59,754 nucleotides of DNA from Candidatus Thermoflexus sinensis (GTDB taxonomy: Bacteria > Chloroflexota > Anaerolineae > Thermoflexales > Thermoflexaceae), in the NCBI GenBank assembly GCA_016842045.1, contig JAEVEY010000044.1, forward strand, positions 1-59,754. The letters run 5' to 3'. Below the pieces are notes generated by a model. It had not been told where the DNA came from, did no database searches, and worked only from the letters and a program-made list of their open reading frames with translations. The position numbers and the translations under genes were made by a program. Positions 1-56,232 of this stretch are shown here, one piece after another; position 1 is the first letter of the stretch, and every line of letters begins with the position of its first letter.

Positions 1-2
1 TG

Positions 3-203
3 GGCGGGGCCGATGTGTTTTTGTTCCCCGAAACCGAAGGTCCGGAAGCGCTGGCGGCAGCAATCGCTCGCTTCCTGGAAACCGATCCCATCGCCCGCCT
101 GCGCCGGCGGGTCCGCCAGAGGTTCACCTGGCCCGCTCTAATTCAGAACCGGGTGATCCCGATCATCGAGGGCAGGGTGGAGAATCTCCCCGCGCGTTTC
201 TGA
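3..203 (+). CDS. C-terminal fragment of a protein, probably glycosyltransferase (truncated by window start)
   Basis: Frame is open back to the window edge (GGADVFLFPETEGPEALAAAIARFLETD...), resembling the end of a GT4-type glycosyltransferase. Confidence 0.5.
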   Translation, partial: GGADVFLFPETEGPEALAAAIARFLETDPIARLRRRVRQRFTWPALIQNRVIPIIEGRVENLPARF

Positions 204-254
204 ACGCGGCCCCCGACCTAGTATTCCAGCATTCGCAAGCCGGAGCGCCGCTGA

Positions 255-1283
255 CTATCTTTCGCGGGATGGTCGTCCTTTCCCGGAATCTTCTAAGGAG
301 ATCAAAGGACGAGGGAAGGGCTCAAAGAACGCTTGCTCGAGCAGATAGGATTCCTCAAAGCGGATGGCCCAGGATTGCAACAGGCGAAGGGGCGCGCTCA
401 GGGGCGCGCGGCCTTCCCGATAATCCATCAGAAGATCCAGGAAATGCGCCTTTTCCCGGGAAGTCAGGCGCGCGGAGACATACCCCATTCCATGCATAAG
501 CGCGTTAACGACAGCCGGACGTCGGGGTGGATGCGATAAGGCGGCCCGGAACATGGTCGCATAGCGCTGAGACACCTCCCGGACAGGCAGATGTTCTGGA
601 TTGGCCAGGAGGCGGCCCAGCTCCCGGAGCGCTTTCTGGTTGTAAGCCATCAGCAAGAATTTATAGCGGGCGTGGAAGTCCATCAGGGATCGGATGCGTC
701 CCTCCCGGATCGCGCAGCGCAAGCGAGCCAGTGCGAAGATGACGGTTAGAAAGTGCTCTCGGAGCTCCCGGTTGGTCAGGCGACCTTCGTCTTCTATGGG
801 GACGTTCGGAAAGAAGCGACGGGCCGCTTCGGCGAAAAGCCCTGCCCTTCGCCCCCCGGAGGTCCCCTTCCCGGATTCGGTATAAACCCGCGCATCTCGA
901 GGCGCGCACGAAGGAGAGCGGCTCTTCAGGATCAGTCCATCCACATCTCCCACCTGACTTAGAAAAGACTCACTGAACCGCCTCATTGTCTCCGTGAGAT
1001 CCTGACGCATGTCGGGCTGAAGGAGACGAATCCCCTCCCCGGTTTCCACGAGGCGAATGGGCGGCCGAGGAACCCCCAGCCCGATCGCCATTTCCGGGCA
1101 GATGGGGAGGAATTCCACGTAAGGCTTCAAGGCCTCAATCAAGGCATTCGGGATGCGGCTTCCATCGTAGCGAACATCGGCAAAGCCCAGACACGCGCTG
1201 ACCACCAGCCGTGGTTTCGGCCACTCCGCTGTCGCTGGGACCCCACATCCGAGGTGTTCCTTCATTGCTTTGCTGTCAACCAT
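255..1283 (-). CDS. rudS: DUF523 (TudS-like) + DUF1722 fusion protein, RudS-type tRNA thiouridine desulfidase candidate
   Basis: 342 aa; SACLGFADVRYDG, CPEMAIGLGVPRPPIRL and KSRSPSCAPRDARVY (three conserved Cys of DUF523/TudS) followed by a DUF1722-like C-terminal half. Confidence 0.8.
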   Translation of the reverse strand: MVDSKAMKEHLGCGVPATAEWPKPRLVVSACLGFADVRYDGSRIPNALIEALKPYVEFLPICPEMAIGLGVPRPPIRLVETGEGIRLLQPDMRQDLTETMRRFSESFLSQVGDVDGLILKSRSPSCAPRDARVYTESGKGTSGGRRAGLFAEAARRFFPNVPIEDEGRLTNRELREHFLTVIFALARLRCAIREGRIRSLMDFHARYKFLLMAYNQKALRELGRLLANPEHLPVREVSQRYATMFRAALSHPPRRPAVVNALMHGMGYVSARLTSREKAHFLDLLMDYREGRAPLSAPLRLLQSWAIRFEESYLLEQAFFEPFPRPLISLEDSGKGRPSRER

Positions 1284-1357
1284 TGCTCCTCCTAACTGAA
1301 GGCCCCAAGAGGACTTTTTCTGACCACCGGAGTCGGTTCAGTCTGGAAATTTTCAAT

Positions 1358-2335
1358 TCATTCGTTGGTGAGACGGGCATAGAAACCTGTCCGAACCCGC
1401 CACCAGATCCGGGGAAGGCGGGCGAGCATCGCACCGAAGCTCAAATGGGCCCTTCGTCGGAACACATCGTAATCATGGGCTTCGATGTCTTCCAGAATCC
1501 CACGGTATAGCTCGGCTGCGGCTGCGATGGCCAGACGTCCATCGGGATTTAATCCCATCACGCCCGGTAGCGCTTCCGCGTAGAGACGGCGAACCCGGAC
1601 GATCTGGAAGCGCATGAAATCCCGCCAGCGCCCATCGACTCGTCCCATCGCGATGTCATCTTCAGTGAGACGAAATGTGCGCAACTCTTCCCGCGGCAGA
1701 TACAGCCGCTGGCGCCTCCAGTCCTCCCCCACATCCCGCAGGATGTTGGTCAGCTGCAACGCGATCCCCAGGCGGATCGCATAGGGAATGATCTCGGGGT
1801 CGGAAAAGCCAATGATATGCATGCTCATCAGCCCGACAGTGGAGGCGACCCCGTAGCAATAGCCTGCCAGCTCCACAAACGTTTCGTAGCGGGTTTGTTG
1901 AAGATCTCGAGAAAGCGCGTCAAAAAATTGTTCCACGTAGGTTGTTGGGATCCGATAGCGGATGCGGGTGTCGGCCCACGCCAGCGCTATCGGCTCGCTA
2001 TCTGGTGGGGGATCGGCGTGAATGATCTGACGCCAGCGAGCGAGTTCCGCCTTCGGATCCCCCCGGGGCATATCCACGATGTCGTCGGCTACACGGCAAA
2101 GCGCATACAGCGCGCGCACGGCTTGTCGCTTGGGATAAGGCAGCAGCATCGAAGCCAGATAAAACGAGCGACTGTGCCATCGAATGATTTGCTCGCATGC
2201 CTTATATGCCTGGCGCAGCTGTGTGTCGCTGAGGATATGTGCACGGAATGAGCCAGAAGAATTCAGGGCTGCTTGGGCTTGCTCAACCAGCGGCTGTTCC
2301 CAATCCGCCAAGGCAAGAGCCATACGATCCTCCAT
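1358..2335 (-). CDS. crtB: Phytoene/squalene synthase family protein
   Basis: Protein from internal ATG (MEDRMALALADWEQ); SFYLASMLLPYPKRQAVRALYALCRVADDIVD and LQLTNILRDVGEDWRRQRLYLP signatures. Confidence 0.92.
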   Translation of the reverse strand: MEDRMALALADWEQPLVEQAQAALNSSGSFRAHILSDTQLRQAYKACEQIIRWHSRSFYLASMLLPYPKRQAVRALYALCRVADDIVDMPRGDPKAELARWRQIIHADPPPDSEPIALAWADTRIRYRIPTTYVEQFFDALSRDLQQTRYETFVELAGYCYGVASTVGLMSMHIIGFSDPEIIPYAIRLGIALQLTNILRDVGEDWRRQRLYLPREELRTFRLTEDDIAMGRVDGRWRDFMRFQIVRVRRLYAEALPGVMGLNPDGRLAIAAAAELYRGILEDIEAHDYDVFRRRAHLSFGAMLARLPRIWWRVRTGFYARLTNE

Positions 2336-2615
2336 AATCGATGAACTCTGCCCCTCAATTGGCGGGAACCGCGCTTCCGGATTCTCCCTTTGTGGCCCTT
2401 CCAGGCACGGGAAGGGGAACCCGGAGCTTTTGGGAAGCGGAACATCCGGTAGCAACCCCACGCCCCAGAATCCCCCAAAGGAGAGACCGACTTCAGAGCT
2501 GGGCATCGGTCGGCGAACAGGCGGATTGCCCCTTCTGCCAGACCGATTCACAGGCCGGAAATCGTGGCCCCTCCTCCCCCAGGTGGCTCGCCACATCGGG
2601 GCAGGCTACGGCTTC

Positions 2616-2645
2616 ACTATATCACGATTGTCCATATTTTGTCAA
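2616..2645 (-). promoter_or_regulatory. crtB promoter TTGACA-N18-TATAGT
   Basis: Minus strand -35 at 2645..2640, -10 at 2621..2616. Confidence 0.7.
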
Positions 2646-2658
2646 TATTATGTCAATA
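2626..2658 (-). promoter_or_regulatory. Putative CarH/LitR operator: three contiguous 11-bp direct repeats
   Basis: Minus strand TATTGACATAA / TATTGACAAAA / TATGGACAATC; each contains nTnnACAn; overlaps the -35 of crtB. Confidence 0.75.
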
Positions 2659-2663
2659 ATATC

Positions 2664-2692
2664 TTGACAAAATGAGGCGATTGGGATAAGAT
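2664..2692 (+). promoter_or_regulatory. crtI promoter TTGACA-N17-TAAGAT
   Basis: Direct reading; divergent to the crtB promoter. Confidence 0.7.
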
Positions 2693-2711
2693 AGAGCGGG
2701 GTGCAGGAGGC

Positions 2712-2745
2712 GGGCGGGTCTTCGGCAGTTGCCGGAGACCCGCCC
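2712..2745 (+). other. Stable hairpin in the crtI 5' leader
   Basis: GGGCGGGTCTTCGGC-AGTT-GCCGGAGACCCGCCC, 15 bp including one U-G pair, no T-run. Confidence 0.7.
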
Positions 2746-2951
2746 AATCGTCCGGGTTCTTTCCTCCCTCCATGCGCGGCGCTCTTTGGATGGGTCTCGA
2801 TCCCGGGGGGATCATCCCCGGAACTCGAAGGGCGCCCCTTCCTCTGAAAACCGGTCAGAACCTGGAATGGTTTGCTGATGGGGCGAAAAATCGTTTGCTC
2901 TTCCCTTAAAACTGATGGGGGCCGTCAACTTGATGGAAAGGAGCTTCTGAG

Positions 2952-4481
2952 ATGAATTCCAAGCGAGTGGTTGTCGTTGGGGCGGGGATTGGCGGGCTGG
3001 CGGCGGCAGCCCGATTCGCACGCCTGGGCTTTTCGGTATTCGTGCTGGAAAAAAACCACGAGCCCGGGGGTCGTTGCGGGCGCCTTGTGCGAGATGGCCA
3101 TCGTTTCGATACAGGGCCCACCTTGCTGCTGATGCCGGAGGTCTTTGAGCAGACATATGCCGATCTGGGGGAGCGGATGGAGGATCATCTGGATCTGATC
3201 CGTGCGGATCCCCTCTATCAGATCTTCTTCCCGGATGGCTCCCGGCTGACGATGACCAGCGACCTGGTTGCGCTTCGGGAGCAGATAGAGGCGCTGGCCC
3301 CGGGAAGTTTTGAGGGCTTTGTGCGCTATCTCACAGACGGTTATCGTTTCTACCAGATCGCTATGGAACGCTTTATTGGTCGGAACTTCTTGTCTTTCTT
3401 CGATTATTTCAATCCGACTCACCTGCGATTCCTTTTTGAGCTACGAGCTCTTACGCCTCACCACCAAGAAACCGGGCGGTATGTGCAGGATCCCCGCTTG
3501 CGAGCGGCGATGACGTTCCAGGACATGTATCTGGGGCTAAGCCCCTACGAGGCTCCGGCAACCTATGCGATGCTGGCTGCGGCGGAATTCATCCGCGGTA
3601 TCTGGTTGCCTCGAGGTGGGATGTATCGCCTTGTGGAAAGCCTGGAACAGATCGCCAGAGGGTGGGGCGCCCACGTCATCTATCAAGCCCCTGTGCGGCG
3701 AATTGAAATCGACGGCGATCGGGCCACAGGGGTAATCCTGGAAAGCGGGGAACGTATCCCGGCGGATTTTGTGATCGTGAACGCGGATCTGCCTTACGCA
3801 TATCGTCATTTATTGCCCCCGGGGCCGGAGGTTCGCCGAATCGAGCGCTATCGCTACACGTGTTCGGCGATCACATTTTACTGGGGGTTAAATGCTCCTC
3901 TATCACAGCTCTTCGCACACAACCTGTTCCTCGCTGGTGATTACCGGGCGAGTTTCGACCGGATCTTCCGTGATCGCACTCTGCCCGATGAGCCCAGCTT
4001 TTACGTCCATGCGCCGGCGCGTCTGGACCCATCGGCCGCTCCTTCCGGTGGAGATACGTTGATGGTGCTGGTGCCGATGGGACATCTGGATCCGGCACGA
4101 CAGGACATGGATGCTCTTGTCCAGCACGCCAGGATAAAAGTGGAGCAACGATTGAGGGAGGAGCTTGGGGTTCAGGTCGGTGAGCTACGTCGCTTTGAGG
4201 TGACTTATAATCCCGAGGCCTGGCAGCGCCTCTATAATCTGGAAAAAGGAGCGGCCTTTGGCCTTAGCCATCACTTTTCACAGATGGGCTATCTACGGCC
4301 CTCGAACCGTCATCCCCGATATCGGAATCTGTATTTTGTGGGCGCCAGCACCCATCCCGGAACCGGCCTGCCGATGGTACTGATTTCCGCCCGGCTCACG
4401 GTGGAGCGCCTGATCGAAGAGCACGGAATCGATTTCCCACTTCACCAGCATGTTCTCGCGCGGGCCCATGCAACGTCCTGA
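2952..4481 (+). CDS. crtI: Phytoene desaturase
   Basis: 509 aa; VVVVGAGIGGLAAAARFARLG FAD motif; C-terminal YFVGASTHPGTGLPMVLISARLT typical of CrtI. Confidence 0.93.
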   Translation: MNSKRVVVVGAGIGGLAAAARFARLGFSVFVLEKNHEPGGRCGRLVRDGHRFDTGPTLLLMPEVFEQTYADLGERMEDHLDLIRADPLYQIFFPDGSRLTMTSDLVALREQIEALAPGSFEGFVRYLTDGYRFYQIAMERFIGRNFLSFFDYFNPTHLRFLFELRALTPHHQETGRYVQDPRLRAAMTFQDMYLGLSPYEAPATYAMLAAAEFIRGIWLPRGGMYRLVESLEQIARGWGAHVIYQAPVRRIEIDGDRATGVILESGERIPADFVIVNADLPYAYRHLLPPGPEVRRIERYRYTCSAITFYWGLNAPLSQLFAHNLFLAGDYRASFDRIFRDRTLPDEPSFYVHAPARLDPSAAPSGGDTLMVLVPMGHLDPARQDMDALVQHARIKVEQRLREELGVQVGELRRFEVTYNPEAWQRLYNLEKGAAFGLSHHFSQMGYLRPSNRHPRYRNLYFVGASTHPGTGLPMVLISARLTVERLIEEHGIDFPLHQHVLARAHATS

Positions 4482-4725
4482 ACAGGATGGACATGGCGAG
4501 ATCGGATGCGCCGTTGACCTTTACCTGTGGTTTGGGGCGCGGGCGCCTTCATTCAGCCCACATGGCCCTGGGCTTCATATACGACGCTTTTACAATTTTG
4601 CAATCAATGAAGGGCGACCTGCCAATTCGGAGGATGTTAGGGATCCCTCCGGGGATCCTGGGATGGCGTGATCGTCTGCCGTGCGACAGGTCTGCCGAAA
4701 CTGTCTGATCCGGCTGGGGTGACCA

Positions 4726-6033
4726 ATGGAGCGCGAGGAAGAACGGCCGGCATATGGCTTGCAGGTGGTCGTGCGGGAGACGGGGATCCGTCCGGATACA
4801 TTGCGAGCCTGGGAGCGAAGGTATGGGCTACCTCGACCCCATCGGACTCCAGGCGGACACCGTCTGTATTCCCGGCGGGATATCGAGATGATCCGCTGGT
4901 TGCTGGCCCGCCAGGCGGAGGGCATGCGCATCCAGCAGGCGATTGCCCTGTGGCGAGCGCTGGAAGCGGCGGGTCAGGATCCCCTGCGGGGGATGCCGGT
5001 TTCCCCTCCCCCTCGTGAGATGGGCCCGGCCTCCATGGAGGCCCTCCGACAGGCCTGGGTGGAGGCGGTGTTGAACTTTAACGAAGAGGAGGCAGACCGG
5101 GTCTGGAGTCAAGCCCTGGCCCTGTATTCTGTGGAGCAGGTGTGCATCGGCCTGGGGATTGCCGGGATGATTGAGGTAGGCGAGCGCTGGTATCGAGGAA
5201 CCGCTACGGTGCAGCAGGAGCATTTCGCCTCGGCGCTGGTGAGCCGTCGCCTCCATGCAATGATTGCGGCAACCCCTCCTCCCATTCGCCCGGAGCGGAT
5301 CCTGGTGGCCGGGCCGCCTCAGGAGATCCATGCATTGCCGGGCCTGCTCATCACACTGCTGCTTCGCCGCCATGGATGGATAGTCGTGGACCTGGGGGCT
5401 GACGTCCCCTTCGTTCAGATGGAGGAAGCCCTGGAGGCCACGCGGCCGCATCTGATCGTGATGACGGCTCAGACGCTGTATACCGCAGCCACCCTGGCCG
5501 ATGCAGCCGAGTTCATCCGGCGCCGTGGGATTCGCTTTGCCTTTGGTGGGAGGATCTTTCAACGATATCCGGAAGCCCGACGATATATCTGGGGACATTA
5601 CCTGGGGGATCGATGGGAGGAGGTGCCTCAGCAGGTCCTGGGAATCCTGATGGGTTCGGATTCCCCACCCACCCTCTCACTGCCCACGGAGTATCTCGAA
5701 GCTCTCCGTCGTTATCGCCTTCATCGGCCGCAGATCGAGTTCAGGCTGGCCCAACAGGCAGGAGAGGAATTTCGAACCCTGCAGGAACTGGACCTGGATC
5801 TTGTCAGCCCCGACCGCATGCTGGAGGCTTCGCTGCGCCTGGGGGTGGTTGAACTGACCCGAGGGGAGATGCGATGGCTCGCGGATTTCTTCCGCTATCA
5901 TCAGCTGCCGCTCCCGGCGCTGCGATCCGTTTTGCTTGGATACGCGGCGGGCTTGCGGCAGATCGCGGATCCTGGGGATCCGCTGGCGCGTCTGGCCTCC
6001 ATCCTGGAGGAGGAAGCCAGCGACCTGCAATAA
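4726..6033 (+). CDS. carH: B12-binding MerR-family regulator (CarH/LitR type) with extra C-terminal domain
   Basis: 435 aa; MerR HTH (IRPDTLRAWERRYGLPRPHRTPGGHRLYSRRDI); W155-x9-E165-H166; B12 motif EIHALPG with H202. Confidence 0.88.
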   Translation: MEREEERPAYGLQVVVRETGIRPDTLRAWERRYGLPRPHRTPGGHRLYSRRDIEMIRWLLARQAEGMRIQQAIALWRALEAAGQDPLRGMPVSPPPREMGPASMEALRQAWVEAVLNFNEEEADRVWSQALALYSVEQVCIGLGIAGMIEVGERWYRGTATVQQEHFASALVSRRLHAMIAATPPPIRPERILVAGPPQEIHALPGLLITLLLRRHGWIVVDLGADVPFVQMEEALEATRPHLIVMTAQTLYTAATLADAAEFIRRRGIRFAFGGRIFQRYPEARRYIWGHYLGDRWEEVPQQVLGILMGSDSPPTLSLPTEYLEALRRYRLHRPQIEFRLAQQAGEEFRTLQELDLDLVSPDRMLEASLRLGVVELTRGEMRWLADFFRYHQLPLPALRSVLLGYAAGLRQIADPGDPLARLASILEEEASDLQ

Positions 6034-6150
6034 AAGTTAGCTTGAAACCTGACCGATCCCCGGCTCGGATCCGCCCATCGCAATCGGGCTGGATGCCCGG
6101 GCCGGGCACTCGGCGAGTCTCGGAACCAACGTTCAGGTTTGGAGCAGACG

Positions 6151-6594
6151 ATGAGATTTCGCTATGCCCTGATCGTGAAGGCACCCATCGAAAAAGTCTC
6201 CGCGCTGCACCGGGATCCGGCAGTTCTGGAACTTCTGACCCCATCTTTCCTGGGGTGGAACTGGGAGCATCGGGAGCCGGTGGCGGAGGGATCCATCGCG
6301 CGCTTTGTGATCGGCCGTGGTCCATTTCGGATTCGATGGACGGCCCGCCATCGGGCGGTTTCGGAGCTGGGGTTCACGGATGAGCAGCTGGAAGGCCCGT
6401 TCCGGCGCTGGGTCCATACTCATCGCTTTGAACGAGAGGGCCCCCAATGCACCCGGATTATTGAGGAAATCGAAGCCCGCTGGCCCTCACATCCGATTCG
6501 CTGGATCCTGGCGACCGCGATATGGATCAGTCTTCCGCTTTTATTCGCTTATCGGGCCCGGAGGATTCGTAAGTTGCTGGAGGTTCGGGCATGA
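6151..6594 (+). CDS. SRPBCC family protein
   Basis: MRFRYALIVKAPIEKVSALHRDPAVLELLTPSFLGW...; stop overlaps the next ATG (ATGA at 6591). Confidence 0.7.
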   Translation: MRFRYALIVKAPIEKVSALHRDPAVLELLTPSFLGWNWEHREPVAEGSIARFVIGRGPFRIRWTARHRAVSELGFTDEQLEGPFRRWVHTHRFEREGPQCTRIIEEIEARWPSHPIRWILATAIWISLPLLFAYRARRIRKLLEVRA

Positions 6595-8144
6595 AACCGG
6601 TCGTGGTGGTGGGCGCAGGGATCGGTGGGCTTACGGCCGCGGCGTTGCTCGCCCACGCTGGATGTCCGGTTGTGGTCCTGGAAGCCCACTGGGACCCGGG
6701 AGGGTGCGCCGCCACATTCGTTCGAAGGGGGTTCCGATTCGATGCGGGCGCCACCCTGGCTGCAGGATTCGAGCCCGGGATGCCCCTGGCTCTTCTGGGC
6801 GAGGTTCTGGGCATCGATTGGGGGGTTCGGCCCGAGGCCATCGCCATGCAGGTTCATCTCCCGGATGGGACCTGTGTGACCCGATGGGTGGACCGCGAGC
6901 GCTGGCGGGAGGAACGGCGCGCTCGCTTCGGCCTCGCAGCCGAGCCCTTCTGGTCCTGGCAGGAGCAGACGGCTCATGCGTTCTGGGCAATAGCGCTCCG
7001 GAGGCCGCCATGGCCTCTCCAGACGTGGAGCGATGCCTTTCGTCTGGTTTACGAAGGGGCCCGATGGCTCAGCGAAGATCGGGCGCGGATCAGGGTCCTC
7101 TCAGATCTGTTCCGACGGGTAACCGATCATATGCCCAAAGATATTCCACGACTTCGTGAATTTGTGGATGCCCAGTTGCTGATCAGCGCACAGGCGCTGG
7201 CCGATCGGGTTTATGCTGCATACGGGGCGGTGGCGCTCGATTTGCCGCATACGGGAGTGGGATCCGTCCGCGGAGGGATGGGAGGGCTGGCGGTCCAGCT
7301 GGCCGGGGCGATCCAGCGGTTCGGAGGTCAGATCTTTTATCGTCAGGAGGTTGTGCGCGTGCGGGCAGCGCGGCCGAGCGGGTGGCTGGTGGAGACGCGC
7401 ACGGCCATGGCCGTGGAGGCCAGTCACGTGATCTTCAATCTCACGCCTTTCGATACGGCGCGGTTGCTGGGCGACGAAGCCCCCGCATCCTTGCGGAATA
7501 CCTCCCCTGCGTCAGCGGATGGATGGGGCGCTTTCGTCATCTATGCGGGGATCCGGGATGATGGTTCAATGATCCGGTTGCCTCTTCATCACCAGATCCT
7601 CGGGGGGACCGGATGGGGCGAGGGGCGTACGATCTTTCTTTCTATCAGCCCCGCATGGGATTCCATGCGAGCTCCTCCGGGTCATCGCGCGCTGAGCATC
7701 AGCACCCATACGGCCCTTGCGCCGTGGTGGAAATGGTGGGAAAGCGATCGGGAGGCCTACCTGGAACAAAAGGCCCGGATGGAGGAACGCATGCTGGATC
7801 TCGCCGCTCAGGTCATCCCGGATTTGAAGAACCGGCTGGTCTTCCGGGAATCCGGCACTCCGATCACCTTTCAGCGGTTCACCCGACGTTCCCTGGGATG
7901 GGTGGGCGGCTTTCCCCAGACCGGAATCGGGCGGAGCCGGGGGCCTCGCCTGGGTCCCCAACTGTGGCTCGTCGGCGATAGCGTGTTTCCCGGGCAATCG
8001 GTTCCCGCCGTCGTGCTGGGCGCCTGGCGGGCAGCGGAAGCCATCCTGCGGGCGCTGGCGGAAACCCCATCGTTCCGGGTGTTCCCGATGCCGGGCCTCT
8101 CCAACGCACAGATAACTTCGTCGGAAAGGGGAAAACTCCAGTAA
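6591..8144 (+). CDS. CrtI/CrtD-family FAD-dependent carotenoid desaturase/oxidoreductase
   Basis: 517 aa; VVVVGAGIGGLTAAALLAHAG; C-terminal LWLVGDSVFPGQSVPAVVLGAWRAAE. Confidence 0.8.
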   Translation: MKPVVVVGAGIGGLTAAALLAHAGCPVVVLEAHWDPGGCAATFVRRGFRFDAGATLAAGFEPGMPLALLGEVLGIDWGVRPEAIAMQVHLPDGTCVTRWVDRERWREERRARFGLAAEPFWSWQEQTAHAFWAIALRRPPWPLQTWSDAFRLVYEGARWLSEDRARIRVLSDLFRRVTDHMPKDIPRLREFVDAQLLISAQALADRVYAAYGAVALDLPHTGVGSVRGGMGGLAVQLAGAIQRFGGQIFYRQEVVRVRAARPSGWLVETRTAMAVEASHVIFNLTPFDTARLLGDEAPASLRNTSPASADGWGAFVIYAGIRDDGSMIRLPLHHQILGGTGWGEGRTIFLSISPAWDSMRAPPGHRALSISTHTALAPWWKWWESDREAYLEQKARMEERMLDLAAQVIPDLKNRLVFRESGTPITFQRFTRRSLGWVGGFPQTGIGRSRGPRLGPQLWLVGDSVFPGQSVPAVVLGAWRAAEAILRALAETPSFRVFPMPGLSNAQITSSERGKLQ

Positions 8145-8324
8145 TAGCCCCCAGAACTTCTGAAAACAGGAGTTGCGCTATCGACTTCCCGAATGGACTT
8201 TGGAGGTGGGGCGAGACGCTGAAGAAGCTTTCCTTCGCTCCCAACGATCGTTTGGTCGAATCCGCGACAGGCAGGCCACCTGAAGTTTTGTTCGCAGGAC
8301 GATCAGTCAGGGAGGAGGCGCTTC

Positions 8325-8909
8325 ATGTCTGCCTTTCGGATCCTGGATGATTTCTACAAGGACGTTCTATCATCTTATCCCCCTCAGGGAGAGGCGTTGC
8401 TCCGGCAGCTTACCCCGGAAGCGTGGCGTCATATTGCATTTCGCTACATCCTTTCGGTGGCAGCCATGACTTCGGTCAGCCACATTATTGAGGAAGCGGC
8501 CGCTCAGAGTCGGGGCACCGCCCATCTTCACGTTTCATTCCAGTTCATGTCCCGTTTTCTCCCTCAGGTGGAGCGCTATCGCACGATTTCGCTCGGAATC
8601 GCCAGGGGATGGATCTACGGCGCCATGGATGTTCATGAGCCCGGAGGGCCTATCCTTCCCGCTTCTCTACGCTGGATCAATACCGAAGGGACTCCGCTGG
8701 TCCAGTACTGGTTCGTTATTGCTTATGGTCCCGGGCTCTTTATGTCTCTTCTGGCTCGGGAGATCTCGGCCCTGCACGGAGCGGGGCGCTATTATGAAGG
8801 CTTTTACGCCTTTGATCGCGATATCTCTTACCAGTTGCTGTTGATTCTGCACATGTGTTTTCCTGAGGATGTGCCTATGCCCCGTCGGCCCGAGGAGTTG
8901 CAATGGTGA
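8325..8909 (+). CDS. DICT-like sensory domain protein (stand-alone)
   Basis: 194 aa; SVSHIIEEAAAQ...HVSFQFMSRFLPQVERYRTISLGIARGWIYGAMD resembles the DICT domain pattern; RBS GGAGGAGG. Confidence 0.55.
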   Translation: MSAFRILDDFYKDVLSSYPPQGEALLRQLTPEAWRHIAFRYILSVAAMTSVSHIIEEAAAQSRGTAHLHVSFQFMSRFLPQVERYRTISLGIARGWIYGAMDVHEPGGPILPASLRWINTEGTPLVQYWFVIAYGPGLFMSLLAREISALHGAGRYYEGFYAFDRDISYQLLLILHMCFPEDVPMPRRPEELQW

Positions 8910-10285
8910 TCGCTCTATGGTGGATCCGTCGAGATCTGCGCCTTCATGATCAGATCGCCTTAACCGCCGCCTTAAGGGCAGCGGACGCGGTCATTCCCGT
9001 CTTTATTCTGGACCCGGTTCTCCGGAGTGTATCGCCCCGTCGGCAAGCGTTTTTGATGGCCGCCCTTCAGGCGCTGGATCATGCCCTTCGGAAGCGGGGA
9101 AGCTACCTGGTGGTTCGCGCCGGACCTCCCCTCGAAACGCTTGGGGCTCTCATGGCGGAAACCGGAGCCCGGCTGATCTTCGCGGAAGAGGATTTCACTC
9201 CCTATGCTCGTGAGCGGGATGAGCGGATCGCTCACCAGCTACCTCTCCATCGTATAGGTTTCCCGACCATTCGCCATCCGGCTTCCATAGTGAAACCGAA
9301 TGGGATGCCGTATCGAGTGTTCGGCGCCTTTCGACGGATGTGGCGAAGTACCACCGCGCTCAACCCGAACTCGCTGCAACCGGCTCCTGTTCGGATTCCA
9401 ACCCCTCCAGGGATCCCTTCGCTTCCGCTGTTCCTCGAACGTGCGGAGCGCTTCGATGATTTCCCGCCTTCGGAGGAAGCCGCTCTGGAGCGCCTGCGAT
9501 CGTTTACAGAAGGAGAGGAGGCGCCGATCTATCGTTATCATCGGGATCGAAACTGGCTGGATCGGGAGGGGAGCGCCCGTCTCTCGCCCTACCTGCGTTT
9601 CGGGATGCTTTCCCCCCGTCGGGCGGCGATCGCTGCATGGCAAGCGATGGAGCGCGCGCCGCATGAGGAGGCGCGTCAGGGAGCTTCGGCGTGGCTGGAC
9701 GAGCTGATCTGGCGCGAGTTTTTCATCACATTGTTCTTTCACTTCCCGAACCTGGCGGAACGTCCTCTTCGGCCGGAGGAAGGAAGGATACGGTGGCGGG
9801 AGGATCCGGAAGCGCTCCAGGCGTGGATCGAGGGCCGCACCGGATATCCGCTGGTGGACGCCGGGATGCGGCAGCTTCGGGCCACCGGATGGATGCCGAA
9901 TCGCGCGCGGATGGTCGCTGCCTCCTTCCTGACTCGTGCGCTAAGGGTGGATTGGCGCCTGGGGGCCCAGGTGTTCTTCGAGGAGCTTCTGGATGGAGAT
10001 CCGGCCGTCAACGTGGGGAACTGGCAATGGGTCGCCGGCGTCGGCACGGATTATGCCTCGGGGTTTCGCGCCTTTAATCCAACAGTTCAAGCGCGAACCT
10101 GGGATCCAGCGGGCCGTTACATCCGGCGATGGGTGCCTGAGCTGGAACACGTTCCGGACTCTTACGTGCATGCCCCGTGGACGATGCCTGAAGAGGTCCA
10201 GAGAACCGCGCGTTGTCGGATCGGAGTGGACTATCCGGCTCCGATGGTCGGCGGGGCACACGGGCAATCGAAGGTGGAAGAATGA
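8903..10285 (+). CDS. phr: Deoxyribodipyrimidine photolyase (cryptochrome/photolyase family)
   Basis: 460 aa; IALWWIRRDLRLHDQIAL; WLDELIWREFF; NVGNWQWVAGVGTDYASGFRAFNP. Confidence 0.94.
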   Translation: MVIALWWIRRDLRLHDQIALTAALRAADAVIPVFILDPVLRSVSPRRQAFLMAALQALDHALRKRGSYLVVRAGPPLETLGALMAETGARLIFAEEDFTPYARERDERIAHQLPLHRIGFPTIRHPASIVKPNGMPYRVFGAFRRMWRSTTALNPNSLQPAPVRIPTPPGIPSLPLFLERAERFDDFPPSEEAALERLRSFTEGEEAPIYRYHRDRNWLDREGSARLSPYLRFGMLSPRRAAIAAWQAMERAPHEEARQGASAWLDELIWREFFITLFFHFPNLAERPLRPEEGRIRWREDPEALQAWIEGRTGYPLVDAGMRQLRATGWMPNRARMVAASFLTRALRVDWRLGAQVFFEELLDGDPAVNVGNWQWVAGVGTDYASGFRAFNPTVQARTWDPAGRYIRRWVPELEHVPDSYVHAPWTMPEEVQRTARCRIGVDYPAPMVGGAHGQSKVEE

Positions 10286-11622
10286 AAACCGGGAGTCAGC
10301 CATCGATGAGCTCGCTATATCCTCACGCGGTTCCGGGAGTTTACGCGCGCTGGCAGGCCCTGCGCATTCTGCTTCGAGAGCGCTTCCTGTTAGAGGCCTT
10401 GCGTCCGTTGCGGGAGGATGCGGGGGATGTTTTCTTCCTGCCGTTGCCCGGGATGCAAGTGGCCGTGGTAGCTGGCGCGGAGGCTGCACGGATGGCTCTG
10501 GTGACCCTTCGCCCTTTGCTCTCCTCGCGCCTGCAGTCTGATCCGGTGGTCCAGCTCCTTCGGAGCGGCATGCTGGTGATCGATGGGGAGGCCCATGATC
10601 GGATGCGTCGGATCGCGGAGCCTTTCTTCCGGCCGGAATATCTGGAGGCTCATGCGGGCCGCATGCTGCAACAGATCGACCGTCGGATCGATGCCTGGCC
10701 GGATGGGGGCGTCGTGGAGATGGATGTCGAAATGCGCCGGCTGGCGCTGGAGATCCTGCTGGATGTTCTTTTTAAGTTGCCGGAGGAAGCAGCGGAAGAG
10801 CTCTGGGAACCCTTACAAGCTGCTCGTGCATATATTGCGCCTGGAGCATGGCTGCTTTGCCCCCGGATCCCCCGGCCAAGTTACAGAAAACCCCTTCAAC
10901 GGCTGGATACGTTGATTCGGGAATTCATCCGCCAGCGGCGCTCGGAGCCTGATCAGGGCGACCTTTTCTCCGCATGGGTTCAGAGGACGGATATGAACGA
11001 CGAAGAGATCCGGGATCAGATGACGACCATGCTGATCGCTGGCCACGACACCGTCGCCACCTGGCTGGCGTGGACGATCGCGTTGCTGGCGTGGCATCCG
11101 GAGATTCAGACTCGTGTCCGGGAGGAGATCCGGGAACAACTGGGGGAGAATATGCCCGATCCCCGGTTCATCCATCGACTGCCCTTGCTGCGCGCGGTCG
11201 GTATGGAATCCTTGCGGTTATTCCCTCCCATCCCGGTTCTGAACCGACGAGCCCTTGTCCCCCTAAGGATGTGTGGCGTTTCGATCCCATCCGGGACACG
11301 TTTACTGATATCGATTTATACCATCCATCGGCATCCCAAGTTATGGAAAGCCCCCGAATCCTTCCAGCCAGAGCGCTTTCTCAACCCGGAGGGGGAAGGG
11401 ATGGGGTTTCGATATCTTCCTTTTGGGGGAGGGCCGCGGTTTTGCATTGGGGCCCCCTTGGCCCGGCTGGAAGGATTTCTGGCCCTGGCCCGGATGCTTC
11501 AGCGGGTGATCTTTACGCCGCTCGCTTCGCCTCCGCGTCCCCATCTTCGGGCCACGCTGGATCCATGGCCAGGGGTATGGGTGCGCGTCCAGCGAATCGC
11601 AGTTCGGGGTTCGACTGCCTGA
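10282..11622 (+). CDS. Cytochrome P450 (CYP175-like, probable carotenoid hydroxylase)
   Basis: AGHDTVATWLAW, ESLRLFPP, FGGGPRFCIGAPLARLEG; ATGA overlap with phr. Confidence 0.88.
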   Translation: MKTGSQPSMSSLYPHAVPGVYARWQALRILLRERFLLEALRPLREDAGDVFFLPLPGMQVAVVAGAEAARMALVTLRPLLSSRLQSDPVVQLLRSGMLVIDGEAHDRMRRIAEPFFRPEYLEAHAGRMLQQIDRRIDAWPDGGVVEMDVEMRRLALEILLDVLFKLPEEAAEELWEPLQAARAYIAPGAWLLCPRIPRPSYRKPLQRLDTLIREFIRQRRSEPDQGDLFSAWVQRTDMNDEEIRDQMTTMLIAGHDTVATWLAWTIALLAWHPEIQTRVREEIREQLGENMPDPRFIHRLPLLRAVGMESLRLFPPIPVLNRRALVPLRMCGVSIPSGTRLLISIYTIHRHPKLWKAPESFQPERFLNPEGEGMGFRYLPFGGGPRFCIGAPLARLEGFLALARMLQRVIFTPLASPPRPHLRATLDPWPGVWVRVQRIAVRGSTA

Positions 11623-11655
11623 TTTGAATTCCGGATGGGGCTTTTCAATAGAAGC

Positions 11656-11794
11656 AGGACTTACGCAGTTCGTTTCCCATGGGGGCAAAGATTTTTCTCC
11701 CCCCTCCCCACGGCCCAAAGGGCCGTGGGGAGGGGGGAGAAAGGGGGGTGGGGCCATTCCGTCCCACCTTAGAGCTTTCAACTGCGTAACTCCT
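11656..11794. mobile_element. MITE-like element with TIR AGGA[C/G]TTACGCAGTT
   Basis: Left AGGACTTACGCAGTT, right AACTGCGTAACTCCT; central GC hairpin CTCCCCACGGCCCAAAGGGCCGTGGGGAG. Confidence 0.7.
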
Positions 11795-11897
11795 AAGAAG
11801 TAGAAGTCTTTGGGGCTGGGATGGGCACCAGAGGTGTCCGTCCTAACCCCCAACTCCATTTTTGATTACTACGTTCTCTTATCCGGAGCGTTCAAAG

Positions 11898-12962
11898 ATG
11901 CGCTGGATGCTGATGCATGCGGGCGTCAAGCTGGGCCTGGCGCTTTATGGATTTCACCGGACTCAGCGCCTGCCGGTTTTGCCCGTCTGTCCGGTTTCCG
12001 GCCCGTTGCCTTCCCTTTCCATCATCGTTCCCGCCCGTAACGAGGCGGAGAATCTCCGTCGCCTGCTCCCTTCTTTGCGTCAGCTTCGTTATCCGGGGCC
12101 GTTGGAGATCCTCGTGGTGGATGATCAGTCGCGAGATGATACCGCCCGGGTGGCCGCTGCCTTCGGGATCCCGGTGTTGTTCATCCGGGAGTTGCCGCAA
12201 GGCTGGTTGGGCAAGCCGTATGCCGCCCATCAGGGAGCTCTGGCGACCCGAGGGGAGTGGTTGCTGTTCACCGATGCGGATACATGGCACGCGCCGGATA
12301 GCGCAGCCAGTGCGGTCGCCTGGGCGCTGACCCATGAGGCAGATGGATTGACGCTGTTCCCAGCTTTCGATTTCAATAGCGCACTGGAAGCGGCAGCTCT
12401 GGCCGCGGCTTTCGCCGGCCTCTTTGCGGCGCTGCGCGCTTCGCATGGGATCGTGAACGGCCAATATTTGCTGATCCGCCGAGAGGTTTATGAGCGGATC
12501 GGTGGGTTTGTAGCCGTGCGGGACCAGATGCTGGAGGATCTGGCCCTCGGCGTTCGATTGCACGCCTCCGGCTATCGCGTTCCCATGCTGGACGGTCAAC
12601 ATGCGCTGCGGGTGCGAATGTATTCCGGCCTTCGACATATGCTGGATGGAATGTCCCGCCTGAGCGCAGGGACTCTGGTATGGCCCGGCCTGCGGCCATG
12701 GATCGCAGCGCTCCTGATCGCATGGCTGGCCACTCCGTTCTCAATCCCCCGGCTGGGGATCCGGGATCGAGGATGGACCGCGCTGATCAGCTGGGCAACC
12801 AGCGGGTTGTCTCTGCTTCCGTGGACCTGGCGGATGGGTCGCCCGGAGGCGGCCCTGCTGGCTCCTCTGGGGGCCGCCATCGTGGCCGTCGCCGGCCTGC
12901 GTGGCCTCTTTCAGCGCTGGATTGGGACAGGAATCCATTGGAAGGAGCGCCGGGTCCGATAG
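11898..12962 (+). CDS. Glycosyltransferase family 2 (CrtQ-like)
   Basis: LSIIVPARNEAENLRRLLPSL, ILVVDDQSRDDT, LLFTDADTWHAP. Confidence 0.82.
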   Translation: MRWMLMHAGVKLGLALYGFHRTQRLPVLPVCPVSGPLPSLSIIVPARNEAENLRRLLPSLRQLRYPGPLEILVVDDQSRDDTARVAAAFGIPVLFIRELPQGWLGKPYAAHQGALATRGEWLLFTDADTWHAPDSAASAVAWALTHEADGLTLFPAFDFNSALEAAALAAAFAGLFAALRASHGIVNGQYLLIRREVYERIGGFVAVRDQMLEDLALGVRLHASGYRVPMLDGQHALRVRMYSGLRHMLDGMSRLSAGTLVWPGLRPWIAALLIAWLATPFSIPRLGIRDRGWTALISWATSGLSLLPWTWRMGRPEAALLAPLGAAIVAVAGLRGLFQRWIGTGIHWKERRVR

Positions 12963-13002
12963 CCATGCCGCAAATCTTCCAGATCCCCTTTCGGAGCGAT
13001 CG

Positions 13003-13818
13003 ATGACCTATCTGGGATTTCTGGTTCTTTTTCTCATCCTTCCCACTCTCCTCTTAATGGCCATGCTGGTCCATCGCTGGCGCCGCGGTCAGCTATCTGT
13101 TCCTTTGCGGACGTGGTCTCTCTCCATCCTGATCCACACTGGAATCGCACTGACCTATACCACGCCATGGGATAACTTTCTGGTGGCTCACGGAGTATGG
13201 ACGTATGATCCAAACCGCGTGACCGGTTGGCTTGTTGGCTGGGTCCCGCTCGAAGAATATCTGTTCTTCATACTTCAGCCGATCCTTGTCGGGCTGTGGT
13301 TGGGGATCCGGTGGAAAAATCCTCGAAACCCCCATGGATCCCTACACCGGGCAGGCCCTCGATGGCGATGGGGCATGACCGCTGTGGGTATCGGACTCTG
13401 GGTGGCGAATCTGGCGATCTGGCGCTGGGGAGGGCCATCCTGGACGTATATGGGCCTGATCCTGGTCTGGGGTCTTCCGCCTTTCATCCTGCAGATGGCC
13501 TTCGGTGGAGATCTGTGGTGGGATCAGAAGAAGAACTTTCTGAAGATCTGGCTTCCGCCGGCTCTCTATTTATCCGTCGCGGATGCCCTCGCCATCCGGG
13601 AGGGGATCTGGCGGATTTCCGTGAACTGGAGCACGGGATGCCATATTCTGGGGTTGCCCATCGAGGAAGGGGTGTTCTTTTTTCTGACCACCGGATTGCT
13701 GACGAGTGGAAGTCTCTTGATGATCCTTCCCGAATCCCAGACCCGATTGCAGCGCATTCACGAACGGGTTCGCGATGGAATCCGGATGGTCTGGGGGAAA
13801 GCTGATCCTATCGGGTGA
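13003..13818 (+). CDS. Lycopene cyclase domain protein (fused CrtYc/CrtYd type)
   Basis: Multi-TM protein with two repeats, PLEEYLFFILQP and PIEEGVFFFLTTGLL. Confidence 0.85.
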   Translation: MTYLGFLVLFLILPTLLLMAMLVHRWRRGQLSVPLRTWSLSILIHTGIALTYTTPWDNFLVAHGVWTYDPNRVTGWLVGWVPLEEYLFFILQPILVGLWLGIRWKNPRNPHGSLHRAGPRWRWGMTAVGIGLWVANLAIWRWGGPSWTYMGLILVWGLPPFILQMAFGGDLWWDQKKNFLKIWLPPALYLSVADALAIREGIWRISVNWSTGCHILGLPIEEGVFFFLTTGLLTSGSLLMILPESQTRLQRIHERVRDGIRMVWGKADPIG

Positions 13819-13874
13819 GCGGTTTCTCGGTTCTGGCAATTTCCATAAACCCATAAGGATCCACAGGCAGGCTT

Positions 13875-14435
13875 ATGATCGCGGTGCTATGGACGGTTAT
13901 CGCGTTCTTGTCCGGCTCGCTTCCCCTGGCCTGGTGGATCGGACGATGGGGGATGGGTGTGGACATCCGACAATATGGAGATCACAATCCCGGGGCGATG
14001 AACGTGTGGCGGGCGGGGGGACGAGGCTGGTTTGTGCTGGCATTGCTCCTGGAATTCCTCAAGGGGGCATGCCCGCTCTGGTTGGCCCAGGTCCTGGCTG
14101 GTCTATCGGGCTGGTGGCTGGTCCCGCTGGCGATCGCTGCGCCGCTGGGCCATGCGTTCTCTCCATGGCTGGGCTTTCGCGGGGGGAAGGCGCTGGCGGT
14201 CACCTTCGGGGTGTGGAGCGGGTTGACCCTGTGGAAGATCCCTATGCTGCTGGGCGGGCTCTTTGCCCTTTTCCTGAGGTGGATGCCTCCGGAAGCTCGG
14301 GCGGTTCGGATGGGGATGTTGAGCCTGGATGGATTGCTCGCCCTGGCTGTGGCTGCCGGGTGGGCTTCTCCAGCATGGCTGATCGTGGCGCTGGGACATA
14401 CGGTTTTGCTGTTCTGGACGCACCGCCGAGGATAG
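13875..14435 (+). CDS. plsY: Glycerol-3-phosphate acyltransferase PlsY family
   Basis: SGSLPLAWWIGR, GDHNPGAMNVWR, GHAFSPWLGFRGGKALAVTFG. Confidence 0.85.
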   Translation: MIAVLWTVIAFLSGSLPLAWWIGRWGMGVDIRQYGDHNPGAMNVWRAGGRGWFVLALLLEFLKGACPLWLAQVLAGLSGWWLVPLAIAAPLGHAFSPWLGFRGGKALAVTFGVWSGLTLWKIPMLLGGLFALFLRWMPPEARAVRMGMLSLDGLLALAVAAGWASPAWLIVALGHTVLLFWTHRRG

Positions 14436-14621
14436 CGGAAACGCCCTGTTGGCTTTTGCCTCCCTCTCTTATGTGGATCAGAAGGGATGGTCAGCTAAAT
14501 GGGTTCCTCTCTCCGGAAAGCCCTCCGAATCGAAAAGCGGCCAGGCCCGAGGAACCGTGCGACGCCGATACGCTTTTCGAAACACAGGAGGAAGGCGATC
14601 CAGCGCAGGGATTGCCTGTGA

Positions 14622-56066: not shown

Positions 56067-56232
56067 ATAGAAGTTACGCAGTTGGTTTTCTCCTGGGGGT
56101 TTGGGGGGAGTCGCGCGCCTTCGGCGCGCGACTCCCCCCTCCCCACGGCCCAAAGGGCCGTGGGGAGGGGGGATAAAGGGGGGTGGGGCCATTCTACCTC
56201 TTCTCGCGAGCCCCAAACTGCGTAACTCCTAT
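56067..56232. mobile_element. MITE-like element with TIR ATAG[A/G]AGTTACGCAGTT
   Basis: Left ATAGAAGTTACGCAGTT, right AACTGCGTAACTCCTAT; two internal GC hairpins. Confidence 0.72.

Follow-up and report, generated by a model that had tools for sequence, protein, structure and literature searches.

The window, that is, the whole 59,754-nucleotide stretch of Candidatus Thermoflexus sinensis DNA that we analysed, carries a group of carotenoid genes arranged on two divergent arms. The features of the two arms and of the gap between crtB and crtI, in which both promoters are predictions, are as follows:

255–1283, minus strand: gene with DUF523 and DUF1722 domains (PF04463, PF08349), behind crtB on the crtB arm
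1358–2596, minus strand: crtB, phytoene synthase (PF00494, E 1.8e-76)
2616–2645, minus strand: crtB promoter, TTGACA (2645..2640), 18 nt, TATAGT (2621..2616); 11 of 12 consensus matches
2626–2636, minus strand: direct repeat DR3, TATGGACAATC, within the spacer of the crtB promoter
2637–2647, minus strand: direct repeat DR2, TATTGACAAAA, holding the crtB -35 TTGACA (2640–2645)
2648–2658, minus strand: direct repeat DR1, TATTGACATAA, 5′ of the crtB -35, TnnACA in phase
2659–2669, minus strand: degenerate repeat dr, TGTCAAGATAT, in phase, TnnACA with one mismatch, overlapping the crtI -35
2664–2673, plus strand: half site TTGACAAAAT, orientation opposite to the direct repeats, its TTGACA being the crtI -35
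2664–2692, plus strand: crtI promoter, TTGACA (2664–2669), 17 nt, TAAGAT (2687–2692); 10 of 12 consensus matches
2952–4481, plus strand: crtI, phytoene desaturase family (TIGR02734 over cut-off)
4726–6033, plus strand: CarH-like regulator gene, behind crtI; MerR helix-turn-helix at residues ~10–75, B12-binding four-helix and Rossmann domains at ~105–308, photoglobin at ~320–433
6139–8144, plus strand: 151-aa protein and CrtD/CrtI-like desaturase, crtI arm
8325–11622, plus strand: DICT-domain protein, DNA photolyase and cytochrome P450, in the same order in relatives
11862–13818, plus strand: glycosyltransferase (CruG-like, below cut-off) and lycopene-cyclase-domain protein (TIGR03462 over cut-off)

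The crtB product scored under the cut-offs of the NCBIfam CrtB models. Its open reading frame (412 aa) has some 80–95 N-terminal residues more than its relatives, with homology starting near residue 77–96. The true start probably lies well inside the frame, near 2329, in which case the crtB leader would measure roughly 280 nt. On the crtI arm, no family match was found for the 151-aa protein. Intergenic gaps of 180–244 bp occur within this arm and could harbour internal promoters, but none with a good score was found; the extent of the operon is an assumption. The DICT-domain gene (8325–8909, plus strand; PF10069) overlaps the start of the photolyase gene, and it accompanies the photolyase in every cluster of the genus in which both are covered.

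Between the P450 and glycosyltransferase genes sits an element (11657–11793) with a perfect internal hairpin and a counterpart at 56070–56229. Both elements are ~140–160 bp long and have terminal inverted repeats near GGACTTACGCAGTT/GGAGTTACGCAGTT. Their core, CTTACGCAGTT, occurs in 93 copies in the genome, while its reversed control has none; this is a MITE-like repeat family.

Four promoter-like sites were recognized within positions 1–14000 of the window, and the crtB site had the top score. Apart from the two promoters of the gap, one site (score 10) uses the TTGACA of DR1 and the other (score 9) lies elsewhere. The spacing of the crtI promoter is alike in the relatives, as judged by inspection. 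A 15-bp RNA hairpin (2712–2745, plus strand) follows directly downstream of this promoter, in the crtI leader. In three other genomes of the genus (G002, G003 and G007) its sequence has changed with 15 of 15 pairs kept, three of them through changes on both sides, and a strong hairpin also folds at this position in the remaining three. The GGTG directly 5′ of the hairpin is conserved in 7 of 7 genomes. The hairpin possibly plays a role in mRNA stability or attenuation. No riboswitch was found in the long crt leaders in an Rfam scan of positions 1–14500, where the sole matches, all below gathering scores, were to a perfect hairpin at 11693–11743.

The published CarH direct repeat reads 5′-nnnnTnnACAn-3′ (PMC9304148), and the gap carries three contiguous units of this form. 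On the minus strand, 2658..2626 reads TATTGACATAA-TATTGACAAAA-TATGGACAATC without gaps, with TnnACA in the same phase in each 11-mer. The initial annotation had described three exact 11-mers here. The motif, the exact 11-bp pitch and the contiguity hold, but the units are not identical to each other. DR2 covers the -35 of the predicted crtB promoter, just as had been proposed. With the crtB -35 inside the middle repeat and the -10, TATAGT, at 2621..2616, DR3 falls within the spacer. The array and the crtI -35 face each other head-to-head. The fourth match noted earlier in the other orientation, CTTGACAA, is indeed present there, with the crtI TTGACA at 2664–2669. DR2 and the block at the crtI -35 additionally form an inverted repeat (2636–2648/2661–2673), the 13-nt arms of which are 92% complementary.

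The repeat stretch is 76% AT, and its arrangement is rare even against this background. The triple pattern matched once in the window and not at all in 100 dinucleotide shuffles. Across the whole 3.44-Mb genome it again matched once, with no match to the reversed control pattern. None of 2000 dinucleotide shuffles of the gap equalled the array, nor did any of 20,000 shuffles of the AT-rich core (2610–2700). A wider regulon was not apparent: there is no second exact triple in the genome, and triples with a single mismatch occur elsewhere at about the level of the reversed control.

We compared nine genomes of the genus (G000–G008, G000 being the one described here). The CarH-like protein and CrtB are both present in seven of them and both absent from the other two (G005 and G008). 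In all seven genomes with the regulator, the best array of the locus is the one in the crtB/crtI gap. It comprises three exact units in G000 and G002, and two exact units plus one with a single mismatch in G003, G007, G004, G006 and G001. The individual units differ in how well they are kept. The TTGACA of DR2 is retained in 7 of 7 genomes, and TnnACA at the DR1 position is in phase in G002, G003 and G007 and has one mismatch in G004 and G006. The DR3 unit is kept in G002, G004, G006 and G001 and lost in G003 and G007. By inspection, each genome retains at least one non-promoter unit 11 bp from the crtB TTGACA, which argues against a plain conservation of the -35. Within the gap, conservation is highest at TTGACAAAAT on the crtI arm, which is invariant in all seven. 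The distance between the inverted TTGACA blocks is 8 bp in G001, 18 bp in five genomes and 30 bp in G006, that is, it changes in steps of 10 and 12 bp, near one turn of DNA. The genes themselves have been rearranged: those for the lycopene cyclase, glycosyltransferase, P450, photolyase and DICT protein are on the crtB arm in G003 and on the crtI arm in G000, with the operator central in both arrangements. The DUF523/DUF1722 gene adjoins crtB in G003 too.

Similar arrays were observed more widely in the class, in the regions around 14 more distant homologues of the regulator (231 kb). These regions contain 14 exact two-unit arrays, 5 of which are placed no more than 250 bp ahead of carH, the expected number there being 0.2. 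Members of other families of the class also carry two-unit arrays ahead of their carH or crt genes. Two more arrays, in L049 and L053, lie where crtB and crtI diverge, in the gap between them, and in L050 three exact units precede a TATAAT, 835 bp upstream of the L050 carH. A further region (L059, 12478–12526) has a pair of exact two-unit arrays that point in opposite directions with 15 bp between them. One of the two has a good -35 and -10 (TTGACA, TATAAT), and a CarH-like gene follows ~0.8 kb downstream; the pair is a candidate for another bidirectional operator.

The regulator encoded at 4726–6033 had been proposed to be CarH-like, and its sequence bears this out. The MerR winged helix scored over cut-off (PF13411, PF00376), as did PF02607 of the B12 domains, with PF02310 at 30.6 bits, slightly under its cut-off of 32.1; the four-helix and Rossmann domains were both matched by fold. 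The signature of adenosylcobalamin (AdoCbl) binding, W-x9-EH and ExH, is present as W155, E165-H166 and E200-x-H202, the glycine of ExHxxG being shifted by one (EIHALPG). The best solved relative is Thermus CarH, with which it shares 30 of 67 residues of the DNA-binding domain and 20 of 26 in its core. It does not reach the NCBIfam CarH equivalog (NF052513; 132.3 bits against a cut-off of 400), and by its sequence it is a CarH relative rather than an equivalog. No other full-length CarH-like protein was found in the genome; a second CarH was sought there, and the other three matches cover just ~50–70 residues of the MerR domain. The genome also has two strong matches to cobalamin adenosyltransferase genes and a weaker third.

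At 435 aa, the regulator is ~120 residues longer than the B12 domains need. A profile of 16 homologues from the class matched the photocobilin chains 8J2W, 8J2X and 8J2Y, the aligned stretch covering both the B12 and the globin domain (profile positions 107–420 for 8J2X). The AlphaFold2 model of the regulator (mean pLDDT 84.7) superposed on 8J2W over 343 columns with a TM-score of 0.79 by target length and an rmsd of 4.3. Thermus CarH gave a slightly better E-value, presumably owing to the DNA-binding domain that the two have in common, and a poor whole-chain superposition (rmsd 11–15). Both profile and fold place a photoglobin domain after the B12 domain, the arrangement of photocobilins. The regulator appears to be a hybrid of CarH and photocobilin, with a globin domain that matches photocobilins in sequence and predicted fold. 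A CarH fused to a photocobilin globin domain is found across the class and is the unusual part of the system. We found no report of a photocobilin acting directly on DNA in the literature searched, and no description of the MerR-B12-photoglobin arrangement in those parts of it that were available to us.

The upper-ligand histidine of the Thermus mechanism, His132, is replaced by Tyr156 in the regulator. This ligand belongs to that mechanism and is not known to define CarH/LitR class I. At the same position AbPcob has Tyr and SasPcob has Gln. The light-state chemistry of the regulator therefore probably differs from that of Thermus CarH. Photocobilins without an equivalent of His132 still release in light, and light turns SasPcob into a monomer in which water ligates the cobalamin and the Glu-His helix is shifted (PMC10979010), whereas most of the Thermus CarH H132A protein remains tetrameric in light (PMC10442372). 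From this difference we would expect release of the photocobilin type.

Whether the globin domain also senses a bilin is another matter. W384, which corresponds to the D-ring Trp296 of SasPcob, is nearly universal in the regulator family. D358 (Asp270 of SasPcob) is confined to this species plus the three relatives nearest to it, most others having Gly or Ala. A canonical heme oxygenase (PF01126), considered as a source of bilin, was found in none of the 9 genomes of the genus and none of 60 related genomes, while the same search recognized it in 3 control genomes. Bilin sensing by the regulator is thus possible but, judging from sequence, doubtful. We give a low chance to a repressor with two chromophores, in which a photoglobin bilin beside AdoCbl would let both red and green light lift repression through the bidirectional operator.

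We consider 2616–2692 to be, probably, a CarH-type, light-released operator common to the two divergent promoters. This putative assignment draws on sequence, conservation, co-occurrence, domain architecture and predicted fold, from which we infer the binding, its dependence on AdoCbl and light, the oligomeric state and the extent of the operon. In darkness the protein from 4726–6033, loaded with AdoCbl, would oligomerise and sit on the tandem 11-bp repeats that cover the crtB -35 and its spacer. The oligomer would also occupy the inverted TTGACAAAAT at the crtI -35, so both -35 elements would be covered. Both arms would then be off: crtB on one side, and crtI, carH and the pigment and photolyase genes behind them on the other. 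As carH lies behind crtI, it would repress itself through the crtI promoter. Green light would cleave the Co–C bond, the oligomer would fall apart and both arms would be transcribed, giving pigments and photolyase. Release would probably follow the photocobilin route, with loss of the adenosyl group, water-ligated cobalt and a shift of the Glu-His helix. Since most genomes have just one good half site on the crtI arm, repression of crtI could be weaker or indirect. The initial annotation had the CarH-like protein repress both arms and light release it. Its action at this locus agrees with the arrays in 7 of 7 genomes that have the regulator, the joint loss, the arrays elsewhere in the class and the rearrangement in G003; the protein is, however, not a plain Thermus-type CarH.

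On the DNA side, the repeats might be nothing but two strong overlapping -35 regions in an AT-rich gap, with no dedicated repressor site. TTGACA is the -35 consensus, the stretch is rich in AT, and triples with one mismatch turn up elsewhere in the genomes about as often as the reversed control does. Yet local shuffles reached the array in 0 of 20,000 cases, non-promoter units are kept in phase, and the array recurs in all seven genomes, is lost together with carH and has two-unit counterparts upstream of carH in the class. We therefore regard this explanation as very improbable. A functional site consisting of the inverted repeat, with two head-to-head copies of TTGACAAAAT to which the CarH-like protein or another regulator would bind as a dimer and with the direct repeats secondary, also seems quite unlikely. 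The near-complete complementarity of its arms, the invariance of the crtI-arm block and the spacings of 8, 18 or 30 bp are in its favour, and the Myxococcus CarA site has inverted repeats as well (PMC9304148). However, both blocks double as -35 elements, which accounts for their conservation, and the distance between them is variable, whereas the direct repeats stay in their 11-bp phase; moreover, characterised CarH proteins use direct repeats (PMC9304148).

On the protein side, the regulator could bind the site as a sensor of B12 level or as a light-independent repressor, rather than as an AdoCbl photoswitch. Myxococcus CarA, which is independent of B12, offers an analogy. Such a role would suit the loss of the upper ligand, given the behaviour of Thermus H132A in light (PMC10442372), and a homologue from the class (L058, 3061–4335) has lost the B12 residues altogether, i.e. 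the Trp, the Glu-His and the lower-ligand His. That homologue is likely, by its sequence, a B12-independent, CarA-like derivative. In the regulator, by contrast, W155, E165, H166 and H202 are all retained, a photolyase gene is part of the same cluster, and photocobilins lacking the His132 equivalent do release in light (PMC10979010). We thus think it improbable that the regulator is not a photoswitch.

Taken as a CarH-type operator, the site resembles that of Thermus thermophilus CarH/LitR (PDB 5C8D, 5C8E, 5C8F), which likewise has three tandem nnnnTnnACAn repeats, one over the -35 of crt; here, in contrast, two divergent promoters share the array. The Thermus protein likewise combines MerR and AdoCbl-binding domains with W-x9-EH and the lower His, whereas the regulator described here adds a C-terminal globin domain and has Tyr for His132. 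The photocobilins SasPcob and AbPcob (PDB 8J2W, 8J2X, 8J2Y) also have a B12 domain followed by a globin domain, and AbPcob shares the Tyr at the His132 position; unlike them, the regulator has an N-terminal MerR DNA-binding domain, and its bilin binding is putative. Operators of CarH in Myxococcales, too, have a variable number of DR and dr repeats around the -35, and in Sorangiineae they have been reported between divergent crt genes (PMC9304148). The gene order differs from that in Myxococcales: here the operator is between crtB and crtI, and carH is behind crtI. As an operator the site is of a familiar, ordinary type; the sensor is a new variant.

Cultured T. hugenholtzii has been reported to be without carotenoid genes (PMC8129789), and among literature titles and abstracts we found nothing relevant on CarH/LitR in Chloroflexota. 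The locus would extend CarH-type light control of carotenoids to Thermoflexus, where one operator has been retained between two divergent crt promoters despite gene rearrangement. It is worth adding that the regulator may serve as a natural MerR-B12-globin protein for studying AdoCbl photosensing without the bis-His switch. It also poses the question of what role a photoglobin plays where no canonical heme oxygenase is found.
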